This document shows, in pieces, positions 1 through 64,000 of a stretch of DNA of 64,000 nt. The stretch is from assembly GCA_900455155.1 (NCBI GenBank), contig UGUC01000004.1:682001-746000 (forward strand), given 5' to 3'. The stretch comes from Providencia stuartii. GTDB lineage: Bacteria > Pseudomonadota > Gammaproteobacteria > Enterobacterales > Enterobacteriaceae. Numbering within the stretch: the first letter of the stretch is position 1; every line of letters starts with the position of its first letter. Both the position numbers and the translations under genes were made by a program. The notes under the pieces are model-generated. The model saw nothing but the letters and a program-made list of their open reading frames with translations, did not search any database and was not told where the DNA came from.

Positions 1-1325
1 CGATATAAAATCGCAACTGTTTTTTTAATCGGCTTCTTTATCGACTGTATTAATATTTTTATGTCAGCGATTGCATTGCCTGATATTGCTTCAGCATTTT
101 CTACCAGCCAATCAATGGTGGCTTGGGTCGCTAATAGTTATATCTTAGGTTTAGTCCTGATCATGCCATTGAGTTTGTGGCTCGCTGGGCAATTAGGTAA
201 CCAGAAACTGCTCAGTATTTCTATGCTGTTATTCTCAGTCAGTGTTTTATTGTGTGGGCTGAGTCATTCAATTTATAGCTTGGTAGTTTGGCGTTTTATT
301 CAAGGCGTTGCTGGTGGGCTATTGATCCCTGTGGGACAGGCTCTCGTTTTTGAGCTATTTCCAGGTAAAGAGCGCCATCGTATTTCAACTTTAATTATGG
401 TTGTCGCTTTAACGGCCCCTGCATTTTCTCCAGCAGTAGGGGGAATGATTATTGATTCATTATCGTGGCGCTGGGTATTTTATGCTAATTTGCCTTTCTC
501 ATTATTTTGCGGCAATCTTAGCATGGTGGTGGGTGAATAATGATGGGCGGCAACAAAGAGAAAAACCTGATGTGATAGGGTTGATTATTGGTGAGCTTTA
601 GCTTACTGTTCTTATTGTTATCCTTTTCATTTTATAACGACTATCATAGCCTTGTGCTGGCCGTAAGTAGCTTTCTATTTTCCGCTTTTATTCTGGTTTT
701 ATATCTTCAATACGCCAAAAAATGTTCGGCGCCCATTTTAAATTTTCAGTTACTCGTAAATAGCAATTTGCGTAATGCTTTTATTGTTTATTACGCAGTA
801 CCTGGTGTATTTACAGGTGTCAATTTACTCAATATTTTTAACTTACAAAGCAATTTGCATTTTAGTGCAGCTCAGACGGGTATGTTTATGCTGCTATATG
901 CCGCGGGGGCACTACTATCAATGCTAAGTGGTGGTTACCTCTATCACCAAGTTGGTAAGAAAACGCTATTTTTTGCAGGAATGACGACTCATAGCTTAGG
1001 AATAATGTTGCTGTTTTGGGTATCAAGTTATTCAGATTTGCCTCTACTCATTGCTGCTTATTTATTAATGGGGGCTGGTGGTGGGTTGTGTACTAATACC
1101 GCTCAGATCAGTGCATTAATTGATTTTTCAGGGAAGGATTTATTGCAAGGGAGTGTGCTATGGAATATTAATCGCCAAGTTTCGTTCAGTGTGGGAACGG
1201 TCGTGTTGGTATCTATTTTTAGTGTCGTCACCGTACAAAATGATTTATTACGCTATCAGTATACCTTCATGATAGCAGCGGTTGTCGGCCTACTATCATT
1301 AATCGCAGTATTAAAAGAGAGATAA
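1..1325 (+). CDS. MFS drug/metabolite exporter, 5' partial, two apparent frameshifts
   Basis: Major facilitator superfamily transporter of the inner membrane; substrate unknown. The reading frame is open from base 1, so the true start lies upstream. Frame 1 runs to about 500 and gives typical DHA2-type segments: the RFIQGVAGG loop, then a 'SPAVGGMI' motif C followed by WRWVFYANLP. Reading then continues in frame 2 (AAILAWWW...PDVIGLIIG) to about 588, and in frame 3 to the stop at 1325. Both shifts are single extra bases, so an intact ancestor or a sequencing error is likely; with two shifts a pseudogene cannot be excluded. The next gene starts 3 bases after the stop, suggesting co-transcription. 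Confidence 0.75.
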
Positions 1326-53158: not shown

Positions 53159-53590
53159 TTAAAATACCTTGATTTTTGATAACCAATAATTTCCTTTATC
53201 ATAAATACATCCAAGTAAAACGTTTCCCTCTGTTTTAATCGTTAATTCACGGCCATTACAGTATTTGTTTTCAAAAGACCATTCTATATCTGCTACGTCA
53301 AGATATCTCATTATAAGCTCGAAACTTGTTTCACTACATATAGATAGGTCATTCAATATAAACACAGGACAACGAGCCAAATCAAATCCTATAGAGTATA
53401 CTACTGAATTAATTATCATTATCTCTAATGCATCATGAAAATACGAAAACCCTTCATGCTTATTTTTATTATCAAAATAACATTTCTGTCCCAAGTCTTT
53501 TTTTGAGAAGATAGAATATACATCTTTTTCATGCGAACCTATTTTTAATGATAAATAGGTTCCTGTTTTTAAAAAACTAGTTAAGTTCAT
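53159..53590 (-). CDS. putative Rhs immunity protein (for CT1)
   Basis: 143 residues, AT-rich. [60 protein letters not shown]. Starts 14 bases inside the end of the preceding rhs-CT frame, the classic position of a cognate immunity gene. No family identified. Its pattern of short strands and 'I-G-F/I-N-x-D' recalls the immunity-like protein at 58260, which may share the fold. Confidence 0.6.
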
Positions 53591-54458
53591 TAAATTTTTC
53601 CAACATTTTAGAGAACTTGTCTATACCTCTTTCTGCTAACCCAATTGAGTTTTTACTGCTGCTTGGGTCACTTAGTATTCTCTTAAAATCATTCATTGTT
53701 TGAGTAATTTGAGTTTTGGCTTGCCCCATTATTTTTTGATTCCCCATTAAATCACCAATATATTTATCAGCTTGATTTAGCGATTTATTACTGGCTCCTT
53801 TCATGTTACCAAAACGTTCCCATACAAGGTTACCGGATTTATCCAACCCTAACTTAGCTTCAGTAATCTTTCTACCATCAACAGATATATCTAAATGAGG
53901 CCCTTTGACCCTAACATCATCAAACTGGTATGGTTGCATCTTACTGGTACACGCCAGCCCCCACGGATCAACCCAACCCACCGGATTCGGCGCATACTGG
54001 TACAGATTTAACCCACCCGCTAACCCGATAGGGCCTTGCTGGGTAAAACGGCCTAAATCTGGGGCGTAGTACCTGAAGGTATTATAGTGCAGACCGGTCT
54101 CTTTTTCGAAATATTACCCTTGAAAACGCAGGTTCTGTTTACCGCTAAAATTGCTAGTAGGGCGAGGGCGGGCCTGACGCTGTAAATTCCCCCCAAACAC
54201 CCTATTGACCTTGCCAAACGAGATGACCGTCACTGTTGGTGAGCGTCTCCGGCAATCCGTTTAAGCCACTGTGCGTGTAATAGATGGCGCACCGTGGATT
54301 GACGGGGGTATCCGTGCACTCAATACGGGCTAAAGAGGTATAACTGTGGTCATTGTACGCATGGTACACCGTGGTGTGCGGTTTGGTGCCTAAATGCTGG
54401 GTAATTACCCTAAAAGGTCATACTGATAGCTGTTATAGTACCCGTATCCTGAAGTAGA
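53577..54458 (-). pseudogene. displaced rhs C-terminal cassette CT1
   Basis: The minus strand carries the end of an Rhs core ([38 protein letters not shown]) followed by a variable C-terminus of about 125 residues ([58 protein letters not shown]). The core has TAA at 54114-54116 where other copies have CAA (FQGQYF), a C6 stretch shift and an internal deletion joining QHLG to TKPHTTVYHAYN. The toxin part itself is open. No catalytic motif recognised; without the N-terminus it is an orphan tip. Confidence 0.75.
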
Positions 54459-56251: not shown

Positions 56252-56879
56252 TTACCAGCCTTCCCAAGCATCATATTTATAATTATCGTCGATTTTTTCA
56301 AATTTAACACCACATAGTTTTAGTGACTCAAACTTATTCTTAAATAATGATGAACATACAGGTTTTGATATTTCATTACAAATGAATAAATGCTCATGAA
56401 TATCATCTCTAATTTTAAATTTATCTATTCTTTCGTAGTATATTTTTTCTAAGTTTTTTTTCATCTGGAGTGTTAAATTCACCCGTCTCTATATCCTTTG
56501 ATATCGTAAATATCGATTTAGACTCATCCATTATAGATAAGTAACTTAGAATATAAAATAAATAATATTCTTTTGATGGGGTTTTGTTTTTATACAATCT
56601 AACTTTAACAGGAATGCTGATACATTTCACCTTCAATTCGGAGAGTAATATTAACATATCAGATGAAATTAAGTTATCATTTGAAAAGTAATCACTATCT
56701 AATTTATATGCCTTTATTTTAACTGCATAATTATTTGAAAAATCCTCTGGTAGTGGTGGTGCAGTAAAAAGGTCATAATTAGGTAATTCTGGTACCCACT
56801 CTTGGTCCATAAAATATGGTATTCCTTCATCATTCGGAGAATATTCGATAACAAAAAATTCATTTTCACTATTAATCAT
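56252..56879 (-). CDS. putative Imm11/DUF1629-like immunity protein for CT2, apparent frameshift
   Basis: Starts at 56879, overlapping the stop of the preceding rhs-CT frame (ATGA-type overlap), so it is the cognate immunity gene. Two frames join when one A is dropped in the A8 run near 56454-56461: ...FNTPDEK then NLEKIYYERIDKFKIRDDIH. Repaired length about 208. YYLFYILSYLSIMDESKSIF, EHLFICNEISKPVCSSLFKN and LKLCGVKFEKID follow the DUF1629/Imm11 layout (Y-x-x-x-x-x-L-x-x-x-D near the middle, 'G-V-x-F' at the end). The family call is an inference. Confidence 0.6.
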
Positions 56880-58215
56880 AATAATCTACCTGTGTTAGGA
56901 TCAGTTTTAAACAAGCCATTATCAAGTCCTTTCCTTGCCCAGTATTGGATTTCTTTTATCCCCAGAGCTAATTGCGTATCGCTCAACTTGTTTGCCTGGG
57001 TTGCAAGTTGAGACAATTTATTCCTTACAGCACTGGTATATTGATTATGATTAGACCAATGGCCTGGTATTTCCATTTTGCTAGCAAGACCTTTTGATCC
57101 AGGTAAAAAGGCTCCATTTGAAGCTCCATCATCATCCCAACCAATCTTTTTAAGTCGATCAAAAAGATATTTAAAGTTCTTATCTTTCATTAACTCTTCA
57201 GGAATAAGATGATGGTTAGCCATGCCATCACCAGTTTTTGCTCCCATATTTCGACCTAAGGCACAACTCGATAGTCCTAGCGGATCGTTCCACGTCAGTG
57301 GATTTGGCGCATACTGGTACAGGTTCAATCCACCCGCTAACCCGATAGGATCTTGCTGGGTAAAGCGACCTAAATCCGGGGCGTAGTACCTGAAAGTATT
57401 ATAGTGCAGGCCGGTTTCTTTGTCGAAATATTGCCCTTGAAAACGCAGGTTTTGTTCACTGTTAAACTCACCGGTAGGGCGGGCCTGACGCTGTAAATTC
57501 CCCCAAACACCATATTGACCTTGCCAAACGAGATGACCGTCACCGTTGGTGAGCGCCTCCGGCAATCCGTTTAAGCCACTGTGCGTGTAATAGATGGCGC
57601 ACCGTGGATTGGCGGGGGTATCCGTACACTCAATACGGGCTAAGGAGGTATAACTGTGGTCATTGTACGCATGGTACACCGTGGTGTGCGGTTTGGTGCT
57701 ACTGTGCTCATGGGTAAGCACCATCCCCACCCAGCCAAAGGTTTGCACTTCATCCGGCTCACGGGTGGGGTAAGTGAGGGTATTGGCTATCGCACTGGCT
57801 TTCCATAAGCGTTTTTCAATTCGCCGCCCGAGGATATCATAACGGTATTCCGCGCGCTCATAACCCAGTGGGCCTTGGTGAATATCGACCGCAATAATCC
57901 GGTTCTCTGCATCGTAATGATAATGCTGTCCGGAAGTGCTGCCTTTTTCACAACGTGAAACCATGCGCCCAAAACCGTCATACTGATAATCAAATTGGTC
58001 GCTGTGGTGCACTTGGTTATGCAGGGCACTTTGCTGACGGTCTTTAAATAAATTTGCCGCTTCATCGTAGCGAAAATGTTCCGTTTGCACCGAGCCTAAA
58101 TGTTGGGGTCATACTGATAGCTGTTATAGTACCCGTGCCCTGACGTAAATAAATCATTCCCTTGGCCGTAACTGACACTGCGCTCTGTCAGGTTATTGTG
58201 CTTATCAAGGGTTAC
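56876..58215 (-). CDS. displaced rhs C-terminal cassette CT2 with an AHH-type nuclease domain
   Basis: Truncated Rhs: after a piece reading LDKHNNLTERSVSYGQGN...YYNSYQYDP, one C is missing near 58109, and the frame QTEHFRYDEAANLFKDRQQ runs 404 codons. YD repeats follow, then [20 protein letters not shown] and PNPLTWNDPLGL, the core end. The toxin part (about 110 residues) has 'MANHHLIPEELM' and GWDDDGASNGAFLP, as in the AHH clade of HNH/Endo VII nucleases, so it probably cuts DNA. No N-terminal delivery part is present, so it is an orphan unless recombined onto a full rhs. Confidence 0.78.
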
Positions 58216-58259: not shown

Positions 58260-58685
58260 TTATCTTATTGAAGCCGTTCCTAATTCTCCAGACAACGATA
58301 AATTAATAACCACATTATCACCAATTAATTGTAACACATCATTTACATTACTTAACTTCCAATTATTCTCTTTAGAAAAACCATCCCAATCATTAACCAT
58401 CCAATTCTTAGATTTTTTATTAACAATCATTTTGTTACGTTTACTAAGAAAGTCTATGTTTATACCGATAATAAAACCACATTCTGTTAATATGTTAACA
58501 TTACCATATAAATAATTTAAAACTTTTTTCTTCTTGGTCAATCTACAAACAGGTAATTCCGCATTACCTAGCACCTTCGTTATTAATAACTCCGGCGAAC
58601 CGACTCCAAGACCCATTATATTATTCCCATCATTTAAAAAATCAATGAAGTCCAATTCCAATGGAGGAATCCATTTTTCACTCAT
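58260..58685 (-). CDS. putative orphan Rhs immunity protein
   Basis: 141 residues: MSEKWIPPLELDFIDFLNDG, NNIMGLGVGSPELLITKVLG, YGNVNILTECGFIIGINIDF, NDVLQLIGDNVVINLSLSGE. Not recognised. It follows, 4 bases downstream, the tail of a toxin gene that was cut off by an IS481 insertion, so the immunity gene has outlived its toxin. The short beta-rich layout is similar to the protein at 53159. Confidence 0.55.
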   Translation of the reverse strand: MSEKWIPPLELDFIDFLNDGNNIMGLGVGSPELLITKVLGNAELPVCRLTKKKKVLNYLYGNVNILTECGFIIGINIDFLSKRNKMIVNKKSKNWMVNDWDGFSKENNWKLSNVNDVLQLIGDNVVINLSLSGELGTASIR

Positions 58686-58799: not shown

Positions 58800-59779
58800 G
58801 GACTTCGGTTGACAATTAGTTTTTTCTAATTGTAGCCGGAGGTCAGATATGATGAACATTAAAGCTAAACGAGATATTGCACATAAAACAAAAATCTTAA
58901 ATCATGCCCGTAAGAGCAAAAATATTGCTAAAATTTGTCGTCATTTTGGGATCAGTAGAGAAACTTTTTATACTTGGAAAAGAGCTTATGAACGAGATGG
59001 CGAGAAAGGATTAATCAACAATAAACCCTGCCCTGAAAACCCAACCAGAAGAGTTGCAAAACACATCGAAGAGCTAGTTATTTATCTGCGTACGACTTAC
59101 CATTTTGGTCCCCAACGTATCGCTTGGTATCTGCTGCGGTTTCATAATATCAAAATATCACGTTCTGGTTGCTATTATGTCTTGCTTAGAAATAAATTAA
59201 ATCAACTCCCTCAAAATCAGCGAAGCCGCTCTAAACCATTATTTAAACGTTATCAGAAACAAGTACTAGGGCATCATGTTCAGGTTGATGTGAAGTTTCT
59301 ATTTTTTAATACACCTGACGGGCAATGAATTAAACGTTTTCAATATACGGCGATTGATGATGCGACACGGATCAGAGCGCTTAAAATTTATGAGAGGCAT
59401 AATCAGGCTAATGCCATTGATTTCATTAATTATGTCGTTGATAAATTTCCCTTTAGGATTAAAATGATTAGAACGGATAATGGACACGAATTCCAATCAA
59501 AATTTAATTGGCATATTCATGATTTAGGGATGGAACATGTTTATATCAGGCCAGCTACCCCAAGATTGAATGGGAAAGTAGAGCGTTCTCATTTAACAGA
59601 TAAACAGGAATTTTATCAATTAATCGATTATAAAGATGATGTCGATTTACATGAAAAGTTAGCTGAATGGGAAGTATTTTATAATTGTCATCGTCCCCAC
59701 TCAGCTCATGCTGGTAAAACACCGTATGAAGTGTTAAAAAATAAGCTTGGTTTTTAAGGCTAAGCGTCAGCCGAGGTTC
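58800..59779 (+). mobile_element. IS481-family insertion sequence
   Basis: About 980 bases. The left end GGACTTCGGTTGACAATTAG (58800-58819) and the right end CTAAGCGTCAGCCGAGGTTC (59760-59779) are imperfect inverted repeats (about 15 of 20). It contains one transposase frame. No clear target duplication. Confidence 0.75.
58849..59757 (+). pseudogene. IS481-family transposase with one in-frame TGA
   Basis: 302 codons. N-terminal helix-turn-helix (IAKICRHFGISRETFYTWKR), HTH-like IAWYLLRFHNIKISRSGCYY, then the DDE core: HVQVDVKFL (Asp), IRTDNGHEF (Asp) and NGKVERSHLTDKQEFY (Glu), ending HRPHSAHAGKTPYEVLKNKL. A TGA at 59326-59328 lies between TPDGQ and IKRFQYTAIDDATR, in the same frame on both sides; an Arg CGA or Lys codon would be expected. 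Everything else is intact, so it is either freshly inactivated or a base error. Confidence 0.8.
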
Positions 59780-60293: not shown

Positions 60294-60404
60294 CTAATAT
60301 GGCGATTCACTCATAGGTATATGAGGCTGATCCATTTGAGTATTTGCCCGCCCTTTGAGTACATGACCAAAATAGGGGAAATCTTTCCGGAATTTTACTA
60401 ACCA
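60294..60404 (-). pseudogene. C-terminal remnant of a displaced Rhs toxin
   Basis: EWLVKFRKDFPYFGHVLKGR, ANTQMDQPHIPMSESPY, stop at 60294-60296. It overlaps the end of the immunity gene at 60398 in another frame and precedes the degenerate immunity gene at 59962. The 'F-P-x-F-G-H' and 'D-Q-P-H' residues look like the end of a nuclease-type toxin, but the family is unknown. Confidence 0.5.
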
Positions 60405-60730
60405 TTCAATCGAAATAAAAGATAATCGTATAATTTTTCTGCCAAAAATTCAGCATGCTCACTTTTCACTATAAAATTAAAGAAATAATATTGGTCATAT
60501 AAATCCTTAATCATAGGCTCGGAAAACATAAAAAACTCTACATATATAGAATATAGTTCTTTAATATTATTAGATATTTCATTTAAATCAAGTTGATAGT
60601 TTGTTACATCATAAAAAATATTAACATATTCATTGTTAATTCTATTTAGCTCGATAAAAGGAGCATGTTTTTTCTCACACTGTTTCCAATGTTCATCCTT
60701 CTTTTTATCATTTCTATAAATAAATTTCAT
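60398..60730 (-). CDS. putative immunity protein of the full-length rhs
   Basis: 110 residues, strongly AT-rich and acidic: MKFIYRNDKKKDEHWKQCEK, IFYDVTNYQLDLNEISNNIK, FFMFSEPMIKDLYDQYYFFN, EHAEFLAEKLYDYLLFRLNG. Starts 2 bases after the rhs stop, the position of the cognate immunity gene. No family recognised. Predicted cytoplasmic, all-helical with a short strand. Confidence 0.65.
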   Translation of the reverse strand: MKFIYRNDKKKDEHWKQCEKKHAPFIELNRINNEYVNIFYDVTNYQLDLNEISNNIKELYSIYVEFFMFSEPMIKDLYDQYYFFNFIVKSEHAEFLAEKLYDYLLFRLNG

Positions 60731-60732
60731 GA

Positions 60733-63700
60733 TTAATCTTTTATTTTAAAATCAGTTACATGGGTCATTTTACCCGTTTTATCTATTTTTGCCATATAGT
60801 GAATATTAACGCCATTAATTTTTTGTTCCATTTTTGACCACCCCTTTCCTTTAAAATGAGGGTCGCCAATTTGATCAGGCTTAATTATTTCCACTCCATT
60901 CTCTGGATGTTTCTTTACATGATCCATTGCAAATTTTTCATTTTTATTTCTTATTTTAGTTCTTCCTGTTGACTTTGATTTTACTTTTTTAGGTTTTCGT
61001 GAAGACGAACACTTACGTAACCCCCACGGGTCAACCCACACCAACGCATTCGGCGCATACTGATACAGATTTAACCCACCCGCCAGTCCTATCGGGTCCT
61101 GCTGGGTAAAGCGCCCAATATCAGGGTCATAATACCGAAAGGTATTATAGTGCAAACCGGTCTCTCTGTCGAAATATTGCCCTTGAAAACGCAAGTTTTG
61201 GCTCCGAGCGTACCCGTTGGAATGCAAATTGCCTAACTCAATTTCCGTTTTACCCCATGACGTAAAGCGTGCGTGCCATTGTAGCTGGCCTTCTACATCG
61301 TAAAGTGCATCGGGTAAGCCATTGGGTTGACATTGAAAGTAGAAAATATTGCGCTGCTCACCCACGCTATCGACACGGGCTAAAGGGGCGTAACTGTCTG
61401 CATCTTCATACACATAGAGCATCTCAATGCCATGTCGCTGCTCACTGAGCAACCGCAACCCTTCCCACAAAAAGGTGGTGGTGCCACAGGGATGAGCCTG
61501 GGTTGGGCGATGTTGTAAAGCCAAGGGCACGTGAGGATTGGGAAGGTACGTCACCTGCTTATGCAAGCGGCGCCCGAGCGGGTCATAGCTAAATTGTACT
61601 TGGCAGCGCTGCTCATACGGATGATGGGTGGTGTGTAAGACCTCGATAAGTTGATGGTCACTGTTATAGCGATAAGACCAACGTTCGCCGGCACTGCTTT
61701 TTTCAATGGTGCGCCCAAACTCATCATAGCGGTAAGTATACCCGTGATAGTGGGTGACGCGGTTATGTAAACAGGCAGGGGCGTGCGCGTCCTGTAACAA
61801 GTTGGCCGCCGCATCGTAATAATAGGTTTCAGGTGAATAGCGGTCACTGCGGCGGTGCAATAGCTGGTCGTTGGTATCGTACTGGTAGTTTTTCCAACCA
61901 TACGGCGTCGTTTCTTCTTGAGTCACGACCAAGTTGTGGCGTAAATCGTAATCCCAGCGCGTTTCGGTCAGGGGTTTTGTGCCTTGTTGTGAGTGATAAC
62001 GGGTTTGCCGAGCTAGGCGACCGAGTCGGTCATATTGCCGTTGACTGCGAATATGCCCTTGGGTGCGCGTCACCTCACGGTGTAAGTTGTCACGGGTAAA
62101 TTCGGTGATAACGGTCTCATCGAGATTAATTTGCAAGGCATGACCGCTGCCGTAATACAGTGTTTTGAGCTGCTTACCATTAGGTAAGCCGACCTGAGTT
62201 CGATTGCCTAACACATCATACTGGTAATCCACCCGTCCACTGAGCGTGTGCTCTTGAATTAGCTGCCCTAATTTATCGTAGGTGAAATGGACAAATTGAG
62301 AATAGGAGGCTTCTCCGGTAGATGTAAAGCGGGCTGAGGCTAATTGCCCGCCAAGTGTATATTCATAGTGGGTGAGCCCTTCATCCGTTTGCCGCTGCAC
62401 CAATTGGCCTAGGGCATTATAACGGGCGTGGTGCACCAAGGCGTGGTCGGTACCGAAAGCAAAAGTCCGCTGAATAGTGCGGCCACAGGCATCATATTCA
62501 TAATGGGTGACTACACCATCAAGCCCAATTTCATCACACAACACATCATCGGGTCCCCAGCGAAAACGGTACTGCTCGTGATTCTCATTGCGCAAAGCAA
62601 CGAGACGGCCTCGCTCATCATACTGGCGCTCAACGGTGCCTTGCTGCGGATTGACCGTGCGTTGCAGTAGGCCTGAATCGTACCAATGGTATTCATAGCA
62701 GGAGCCGTCAGCCTGCTCAAAACGCGATAAGCGACCCAGCGCATCCCAATAGAAGCGATTTGACCAACCGTCGGGGCGAGTGATGACAAGCGGGCGACCC
62801 GCAGCATCATAGTGAAAATGCGTCTCTTCATGCTCGGCATCTTCGGTGCAAATCAGTTGATGTTGAGCATTATAACGGTACTGAGTGACTTTTCCCGAAC
62901 AGTCTTGGTGGCGCGTGATTTGCCCGCGTAAATTATAGGTTAACTGTCTGACCCCTTGTTTGGCATCGATTTGTTTAATCACTTCACCAAACTCATCACG
63001 TTCAAATGTTGTGGTTTGCCCTAATGCATTGGTTTCTGAGATAAGTCCATGATGCACGTCATAACTAAACAGAGTGCGGCTCCCATCGGGAGAGGTAATA
63101 CTCTTAATTAAATCTCGTGTAGTTAGCCACTGTATTAAAGTGGTATTCCCCAATGGGTCGGTTTCTTCGGTTAAGCAGCCATTTTCATCATAGTGAAAAT
63201 GCCACTGTTCATTCAGTGGTGACGAAGTTTGACTGAGCAGGCCTAATTCATTCCACTCATACCACCAGTCATTGCCTGCCTCATCAGTATAACGGGTGAC
63301 TAAGAATTGCTCATTCCATTCGTGGGTATGAGAGAGCTGATTCGCATGAATGACATGGGTTGTTCGAGCGACCATATCATAATCGATACGGCAATGTTCG
63401 CCTGCGTTAGTTTTATATTCAACGACCCGCCAATCATCAAATTTTGCCCAGTCATAATCACAGCGCAGTCCCTCAGGCAGGCGATGCTGCGTGAGCAGGT
63501 TATGCTCATTGTAGGCATATTCGCGAATGATAACGCCGCTGGCATCAATAACGGCGCTGACTTGCCCTTGATCATTATAGCGGTAGTGTACTAAGTCTCG
63601 GTCAGGCTCGTTGTCTTGTTGCTCGACGATGTGAGTGACACAATGAGGCAGGTCAGGATGGTGGTAAACAAGCGTCACTGCCAGTGTTTGTGCTGTGTCT

Positions 63701-64000
63701 GTGATTTGGTGAAGGCGATGCTGTGCATCATAGTGCAGTATCAACCCATTGCCATATTCATCGCTCAGCGACACCAGGCGAAGGTGTGCCGGATTATCGT
63801 CTCGCGGTGTAAATAAGCGCCAGCATTCTCCGTCACTGTCACTGATTGTGAGGTCACCGCGTTCATTGGCGGCAATAATTAACCCTTCATCAGCATTGAA
63901 ATATTGGATCCCGGGGACAGGCGGTTCAAAGCGCAGTTCACGACCACTCATATCGCGGTAACAATAGTGGTTCGCTTCACGGGTCACGCTCACTTCAAAC
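60733..64000 (-). CDS. Rhs-family polymorphic toxin, N-terminus outside the window
   Basis: Open to the window edge (…FEVSVTREANHYCYRDMSGR). Over 1,000 residues of YD/Rhs repeats (G-x-x-x-x-x-x-Y-D-x-x-G-R-L), which form the cocoon that encloses the toxin. The core ends at [27 protein letters not shown]; aspartyl autoproteolysis after this site is typical. The toxin tip has only about 94 residues: a Lys-rich start (RKPKKVKSKSTGRTKIRNKN), FAMDHVKKHPENGVEIIKPD, WSKMEQKINGVNIHYMAKID, GKMTHVTDFKIKD. No known catalytic motif. The core is G+C-rich, the tip AT-rich, the usual sign of tip exchange. Delivered by T6SS in relatives. Confidence 0.9.
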   Translation of the reverse strand, partial: FEVSVTREANHYCYRDMSGRELRFEPPVPGIQYFNADEGLIIAANERGDLTISDSDGECWRLFTPRDDNPAHLRLVSLSDEYGNGLILHYDAQHRLHQITDTAQTLAVTLVYHHPDLPHCVTHIVEQQDNEPDRDLVHYRYNDQGQVSAVIDASGVIIREYAYNEHNLLTQHRLPEGLRCDYDWAKFDDWRVVEYKTNAGEHCRIDYDMVARTTHVIHANQLSHTHEWNEQFLVTRYTDEAGNDWWYEWNELGLLSQTSSPLNEQWHFHYDENGCLTEETDPLGNTTLIQWLTTRDLIKSITSPDGSRTLFSYDVHHGLISETNALGQTTTFERDEFGEVIKQIDAKQGVRQLTYNLRGQITRHQDCSGKVTQYRYNAQHQLICTEDAEHEETHFHYDAAGRPLVITRPDGWSNRFYWDALGRLSRFEQADGSCYEYHWYDSGLLQRTVNPQQGTVERQYDERGRLVALRNENHEQYRFRWGPDDVLCDEIGLDGVVTHYEYDACGRTIQRTFAFGTDHALVHHARYNALGQLVQRQTDEGLTHYEYTLGGQLASARFTSTGEASYSQFVHFTYDKLGQLIQEHTLSGRVDYQYDVLGNRTQVGLPNGKQLKTLYYGSGHALQINLDETVITEFTRDNLHREVTRTQGHIRSQRQYDRLGRLARQTRYHSQQGTKPLTETRWDYDLRHNLVVTQEETTPYGWKNYQYDTNDQLLHRRSDRYSPETYYYDAAANLLQDAHAPACLHNRVTHYHGYTYRYDEFGRTIEKSSAGERWSYRYNSDHQLIEVLHTTHHPYEQRCQVQFSYDPLGRRLHKQVTYLPNPHVPLALQHRPTQAHPCGTTTFLWEGLRLLSEQRHGIEMLYVYEDADSYAPLARVDSVGEQRNIFYFQCQPNGLPDALYDVEGQLQWHARFTSWGKTEIELGNLHSNGYARSQNLRFQGQYFDRETGLHYNTFRYYDPDIGRFTQQDPIGLAGGLNLYQYAPNALVWVDPWGLRKCSSSRKPKKVKSKSTGRTKIRNKNEKFAMDHVKKHPENGVEIIKPDQIGDPHFKGKGWSKMEQKINGVNIHYMAKIDKTGKMTHVTDFKIKD

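Follow-up and report, generated by a model that had tools for sequence, protein, structure and literature searches.

Near the end of the window (the whole 64,000-nucleotide stretch of Providencia stuartii DNA that was analysed), a reverse-strand Rhs gene, whose 5' part lies beyond the window, is followed by a small open reading frame (ORF) beginning 2 bases past the Rhs stop codon (Table 1). The Rhs protein has RHS repeats and a core, and its variable tip comes after DPxGL, a junction that we take to be the boundary between Rhs core and variable tip. The first-pass annotation had described a tip of about 94 residues after WVDPWGL, with a basic start and a DFKIKD end. The length, the quoted stretch and the end were all correct, and the basic start corresponds to a basic linker in the predicted model. 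The span given for it, 60733-61020, does hold the tip, but its last three bases are the Leu codon of WGL. Once extended past the window end (locus L031), the carrier ORF is 1265 aa long, with PF05593 and DUF6531 above the Pfam cut-off and PF03527 (RHS) slightly under it (25.5 vs 27.9 bits). A PAAR motif was matched there in part, at profile positions 41-68 of 70 and short of the cut-off (E 0.0014), and the frame upstream is broken. At 4470-10327 of L031, near the contig end, PAAR, VgrG-like and PriA-like coding is split over several frames, the latter two labels being our own presumptive assignments from the sequence. Since the PAAR part and the VgrG-like gene are frame-broken in the assembly, delivery in the source strain is uncertain.

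Table 1. Features of the Rhs tip and of the gene beside it. Positions are those of the window; residues are numbered from the first residue of the tip.
Feature	Position	Strand	Basis or remark
Rhs protein (RHS repeats, RHS core, DUF6531)	60733..63999	-	5' part beyond window
VWVDPWGL, Rhs core end / DPxGL junction before variable tip	61018..61041	-	sequence
Leu codon of WGL	61018-61020	-	outside the tip
Toxin tip, 94 aa + stop	60733..61017	-	after DPWGL; ORF translation
Basic linker of tip	residues about 1-23		predicted model
Predicted tip elements	helix 25-36; strands 42-45, 60-67, 70-78, 84-93		AlphaFold2 model
E27, helix start	60937..60939	-	acidic 26/26 (24 E, 2 D)
D52	60862..60864	-	invariant 26/26
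K62	60832..60834	-	kept in 25/26
H73-Y74	60796..60801	-	invariant 26/26
D89-F-K91 (DxK)	60745..60753	-	D89 and K91 invariant 26/26
Candidate cognate immunity gene, 110 aa, ATG start	60398..60730	-	adjacency, recurrence, selection

The adjoining ORF had been put forward as a 110-aa helical immunity candidate. Its length and its place next to the tip hold, but the predicted structure is alpha/beta (helix-strand-strand-helix-helix-strand-helix) and not simply helical, with a pLDDT of only about 60-68 at residues 41-90. The protein gave no sequence match in Pfam, NCBIfam or the PDB chains; weak rows seen with partners of the family, for Csx27 (E 1), PcfF (E 0.12) and Tobravirus_2B (E 0.097), were taken as chance. 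A structure search with the model returned no convincing fold relative, the best row (Z 5.5) being a TSC-complex chain.

An array of older Rhs tips lies behind the toxin pair. Its stretch at 56421-58090 (-) holds a displaced piece of Rhs core that ends in an AHH nuclease tip (PF14412, E 5.3e-12) and, behind it, a partner resembling Imm11 (E 5.4e-5). Another WVDPWGL tip (134-aa ORF) with a 143-aa downstream ORF lies at 53159-53981 (-), neither of them with a Pfam or NCBIfam family. Between the toxin pair and the older tips, ORFs in two frames at 58849-59757 (+) are presumably transposase-like. A 141-aa ORF at 58260-58685 (-), between the toxin pair and the AHH fragment, has no Pfam or NCBIfam family and is possibly an orphan immunity gene.

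Both genes of the pair recur in the same order in Thorsellia anophelis (identity 81% for the tip and 51% for the partner), Pantoea sp. (81% and 46%), a Phytobacter plasmid (81% and 59%) and Escherichia coli JNE120442 (82% and 63%). The same gene order was found in an uncultured Apibacter metagenome-assembled genome (MAG), with a tip of 70% identity containing a stop and a partner of 62%. With the window itself, the partner adjoins the tip in all six distinct carriers examined for the window-tip subtype, one of three E. coli and the MAG with its interrupted tip among them. A match across 95% of the query (tip plus partner) was found in 3 of 5426 E. coli genomes, and three others matched the partner alone. 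In one of these, E. coli 2013C-4282, an orphan relative of the immunity gene (L014, 3965-4291) lies between agp and yccJ, downstream of agp and with another hypothetical gene behind it; no family tip was found in the fetched stretch, and the same match occurs in two more of the 5426 genomes. Among 72,556 plasmid records, six matched the tip and 12 a CdiA-type relative. Searches in phages, and for the CdiA-type pair in E. coli genomes, found nothing. The sole other place in the genome of origin (L002, E 0.89) was rejected; we take it to be a peroxiredoxin-like gene.

Tip and partner are under purifying selection: among pairs whose dS is not saturated, dN/dS was 0.05 for the tip (three of 10 pairs) and 0.14-0.29 for the partner (eight of 21), the partner diverging faster than the toxin tip. 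Since a homologous tip and a homologous partner recur in the same order across genera with low dN/dS, the pair is real and not a chance arrangement. The same data bear on whether the tip is a decayed, passively carried Rhs end that is non-functional here. Such decay would fit the broken PAAR and VgrG-like frames upstream, which suggest either assembly indels or real decay. However, the adjoining PriA-like coding is broken too, which makes assembly indels likely; neither the tip ORF nor the partner ORF is interrupted, both evolve under purifying selection across genera, and the Thorsellia carrier is a single unbroken 1536-aa ORF containing both RHS repeats and a PAAR motif (E 3e-8). We therefore consider a decayed tip highly improbable.

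Relatives of the tip were collected by profile searches in genome samples of the order, the class and the phylum, which overlap. Within the order, 14 of 394 genomes gave tips (the own genome is counted, and one match was judged false), as did five of 398 in the phylum sample; an earlier 9-row profile had matched 2 of 369 genomes of the class and 4 of 398 of the phylum, with the own genome counted in both. The false match (L042, E 1e-4) adjoins a response regulator and was dropped; it looks PepSY-type to us. IMG/VR yielded nothing with five queries and two loci with a sixth, L016. The genome-sample matches, together with plasmid, E. coli and IMG/VR loci, gave 26 aligned representatives. Left out were ten repeats of the same places (L003, L024-L026, L030-L034, L044), L019 (a near-copy of L015), L009 (internal stop), L023 (frame-broken end) and the false L042. 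The profile of the later searches held 15 sequences, all among the 26 except that L003 stood for L007; L006 and its repeat L043, which have internal stops, were not matched by it.

The tips fall into six clusters, which were compared pairwise by hhalign. Twelve of the 15 pairs reached a probability of 91.9-99.6%. The weaker pairs were the Rhs type against the VENN type (69%) and against the L040/L041 branch (52%), and L040/L041 against L020 (5%); it is mainly the CdiA-DUF637 type that ties the VENN type (98%) and, at 97%, the L040/L041 branch to the Rhs type. In the two controls, of 25 comparisons each, toxin against partner clusters gave at most 1.1%, and toxins against reversed toxins stayed at 6.6% or less, apart from a cluster that reached 15% with its own reverse. 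By these probabilities and controls, the core tip family is solid.

The family is borne by carriers of several kinds. Besides the PAAR-Rhs protein of Thorsellia, another RHS-repeat protein carries it at L020. CdiA-like carriers were found at L016, L027 (a 4667-aa frame), L035 and L036, with PT-VENN above cut-off, and at L011 and L012, with DUF637 by record annotation; L037 (DUF6862) is probably CdiA-like as well. A MafB carrier (L019, 925-2069) has the MafB domain (PF06255, E 2.1e-52) and its own downstream gene, and the near-copy L015 (2441-3060) places a family tip in a Neisseria gonorrhoeae record. The Phytobacter plasmid (L010, 958-6234) bears an array in which short toxin tips stand with immunity genes (AHH with Imm43, TNT-related); the family tip in it has no annotated gene.

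D52, H73, Y74, D89 and K91 are invariant in all 26 representatives, a conservation partly favoured because the search profile was built from the same members. Together with the acid at position 27, these five polar or aromatic columns form a pattern as in an enzyme. The faces of strands 2-4, assigned by strand alternation over 27 columns, three of which are filled in only 5-6 sequences, differ in polarity: the one that bears K62, H73, D89 and K91 is polar, the opposite one hydrophobic (mean Kyte-Doolittle -1.9 vs +1.1, permutation p 0.0007). If strands 70-78 and 84-93 form a hairpin, H73 would, from the turn positions, stand opposite D89. The H-to-D spacing is 12 in 20 of the 26 sequences, 16 in five and 11 in one; such spacings are compatible with a cross-strand H-D pair, since turn lengths can differ.

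The suspicion that tip and partner might be new was supported, as neither matched a named Ntox or Imm family. The window tip has no Pfam, NCBIfam or PDB-chain sequence match. Across the 26 representatives no Pfam model passed its threshold within the tip, the rows there being at chance level or below cut-off, and NCBIfam gave no match in the 11 of 26 family tips scanned. A sequence-profile search of the PDB gave nothing, its one row (E 1.6) being judged chance, and none of the three resources linked the tip by sequence to a named BECR family. The displaced neighbouring Rhs tip at 56876-58090, by contrast, was recognised as AHH (E 5e-12) and its partner as Imm11 (5e-5). In the portions of the toxin table of PMC3482391 that were compared, no signature equals [E/D], D, K, HY, DxK. 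No paper naming the domain was found in the literature, in which a nameless family is hard to search by words and subscription papers lie mostly outside the coverage.

The structure prediction and Foldseek comparison proposed with the first-pass annotation gave one helix and then four strands in the former, but no match at E <= 0.001 in the latter. The AlphaFold2 model was built on four aligned sequences and has a mean pLDDT of 77.5 and a pTM of 0.63, with pLDDT 80-87 from residue 21 on. Its element order fits the BECR unit, defined in the available part of PMC3482391 as a helical segment followed by a four-strand meander, the model being of moderate confidence and its strand pairing presumptive. 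A search of viral structures with the tip gave nothing at E <= 0.001. The ten best VIA-align rows were eight RelE/ParE-family chains, CdiA-CT Kp342 and BrnT, with Z 4.7 to 3.7, rmsd 3.2-4.6 and 57-76 aligned residues, where a Z below 8 may mean a mere common arrangement and rows within 1 Z count as tied. We take 5ceg, one of these best rows, to be a RelE/ParE-family chain. Among the lower rows were 7m5f, HigB2 (presumably of the RelE family) and RNase Sa2, the scores overall spanning Z 4.7 to 3.2, a range in which chance arrangements occur, and unrelated rows were tied with most of them (a pilin at rank 11, Z 3.7; an APOBEC3H-complex chain at rank 13, Z 3.5).

The predicted fold thus leans weakly to BECR, in line with the likeness to the compact beta-sheet ends of small RNase toxins noted at first sight. 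The weak scores, tied with unrelated rows, would also suit a toxin with some other target (e.g. nucleotide or protein modification), whose small alpha+beta fold merely resembles BECR. We regard this as quite unlikely: a nuclease is indicated by the basic character of the tip, by H, K, D and K on the polar face of the sheet, and by the ten leading rows of one toxin superfamily.

Among the closest known systems are two BECR-fold CDI toxins, CdiA-CT Kp342 (6CP9) and the Serratia BWH57 toxin (7M5F). Like the tip, they are C-terminal polymorphic-toxin domains with their own immunity genes, and both appear among the structural matches (6cp9_C, the toxin chain by residue numbers, Z 3.8 over 76 residues; 7m5f_C, Z 3.6 over 62). 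They show no sequence similarity to the tip in the PDB-chain search, and their sites differ from its [E/D], D, K, HY, DxK, being K157, Y160, H170, R252 and T255 in Kp342 (PMC9086364, in part) and a proposed H47, E51, H52 and R89 in BWH57 (PMC8616854, in part). RelE, ParE and BrnT (1wmi, 3g5o, 3u97) gave the best structural rows but belong to toxin-antitoxin pairs and have no Pfam link to the tip; the residues listed for Tox-RelE in the accessible part of PMC3482391 are [KR] and R, against the invariant H-Y and D-x-K here. The Neisseria MafB C-terminal toxins are similar in that a homologous tip stands on a MafB-domain protein with its own downstream gene. In the available text of the sources, however, the characterised MafB-CTs differ, one being an EndoU RNase (PMC4287609) and another RNase A-like (PMC9970974) and compared with the Ntox50 toxin YxiD (PMC12700104). 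For strain NEM8013, growth inhibition of E. coli by two MafB proteins, counteracted by the cognate MafI, is reported (PMC4287609, in part); one of the two may be the MafB cassette found here. The Ntox families of Zhang et al. 2012 likewise comprise short tips swapped among RHS, filamentous-haemagglutinin and MafB carriers (PMC3482391), but no Ntox Pfam model matches the tip and the signatures compared in the covered part of that paper differ.

On balance, we think it probable that these tips are an undescribed family of small, probably metal-independent BECR-type RNase toxins, in this case carried by a type VI secretion (T6SS) PAAR-Rhs protein and neutralised by the product of the adjacent immunity gene; we infer the RNase activity. 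The tip would be the toxic domain of a T6SS PAAR-Rhs effector, presumably freed from its carrier to act. Its one helix would pack against the hydrophobic face of the four-strand sheet, and K62, H73, D89 and K91 on the opposite face would make up the active site; D52 and the acid at 27 would lie close by or have a structural role. Because of the shared polar face and the H73-D89 cross-strand register, an RNase site on H73 and D89 is proposed, in which K62 and K91 would serve the phosphate and the transition state.

The same residues could be arranged otherwise. A metal-dependent PD-(D/E)xK nuclease cutting DNA would build its site from the helix acid at 27, from D52 (or else H73 taking the D position) and from D89-x-K91 as the (D/E)xK. 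The acid-D-DxK order agrees with this, all 26 representatives share the three acids and the lysine, three invariant acids with DxK also suit a metal site, and PD-(D/E)xK CDI toxins of known structure exist (PMC9086364, in part). However, D52 sits 37 residues and two predicted strands ahead of D89, and the Rhs-, CdiA-DUF637- and MafB-type tips have few residues beyond DFKxK, too few for the second helix and last strand of an alpha-beta-beta-beta-alpha-beta core; in the Rhs type nothing follows the last predicted strand. The VENN-type tips have a longer tail, which keeps such a nuclease possible for them. No PD-(D/E)xK toxin title appears among the best 50 VIA-align rows, which is not an exclusion. 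Taken together, we judge this reading unlikely.

For the preferred RNase toxin, the 110-aa protein encoded downstream would be the immunity protein that binds the tip. BECR CDI immunity proteins bind, in general, at the active site (PMC9086364, in part), and by analogy this one most likely shields the polar sheet face.

The partners across the family form four groups: IA (the window pair), IB (CdiA-DUF637), IC (MafB type) and ID (VENN type). All hhalign probabilities among the four are below 5%, which, with few sequences per group, means no detectable similarity but is not proof of different folds. Group IB is joined by the L020 partner at 98% and by the L040/L041 partners at 81%, the L020 and L040/L041 partners reaching only 37% with each other. 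The MafB-type partner has a weak cREC_REC row (E 2.8e-4), short of the curated cut-off. In the available part of PMC13392607, a DNase toxin is reported to have two immunity proteins of distinct structure, so that several partners per toxin are known in principle.

We give even odds to a broader reading, in which the tip would be the founding member of an undescribed superfamily of RNase toxins of minimal size (about 70-80 residues). Its [E/D]-D-K-HY-DxK site would be invariant and common to T6SS Rhs, CDI and MafB weapons, and that one active site would be guarded by at least four immunity folds, unrelated to each other, that arose or were recruited independently. The finding would add a new toxin family of an established type, in which Rhs, CdiA-like and MafB tips outside every Pfam model, one of them in a Neisseria gonorrhoeae record, are united by one active-site signature. 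Since one toxin domain stands with at least four dissimilar partner groups, the family may be a good system for studying how different immunity proteins block one active site.
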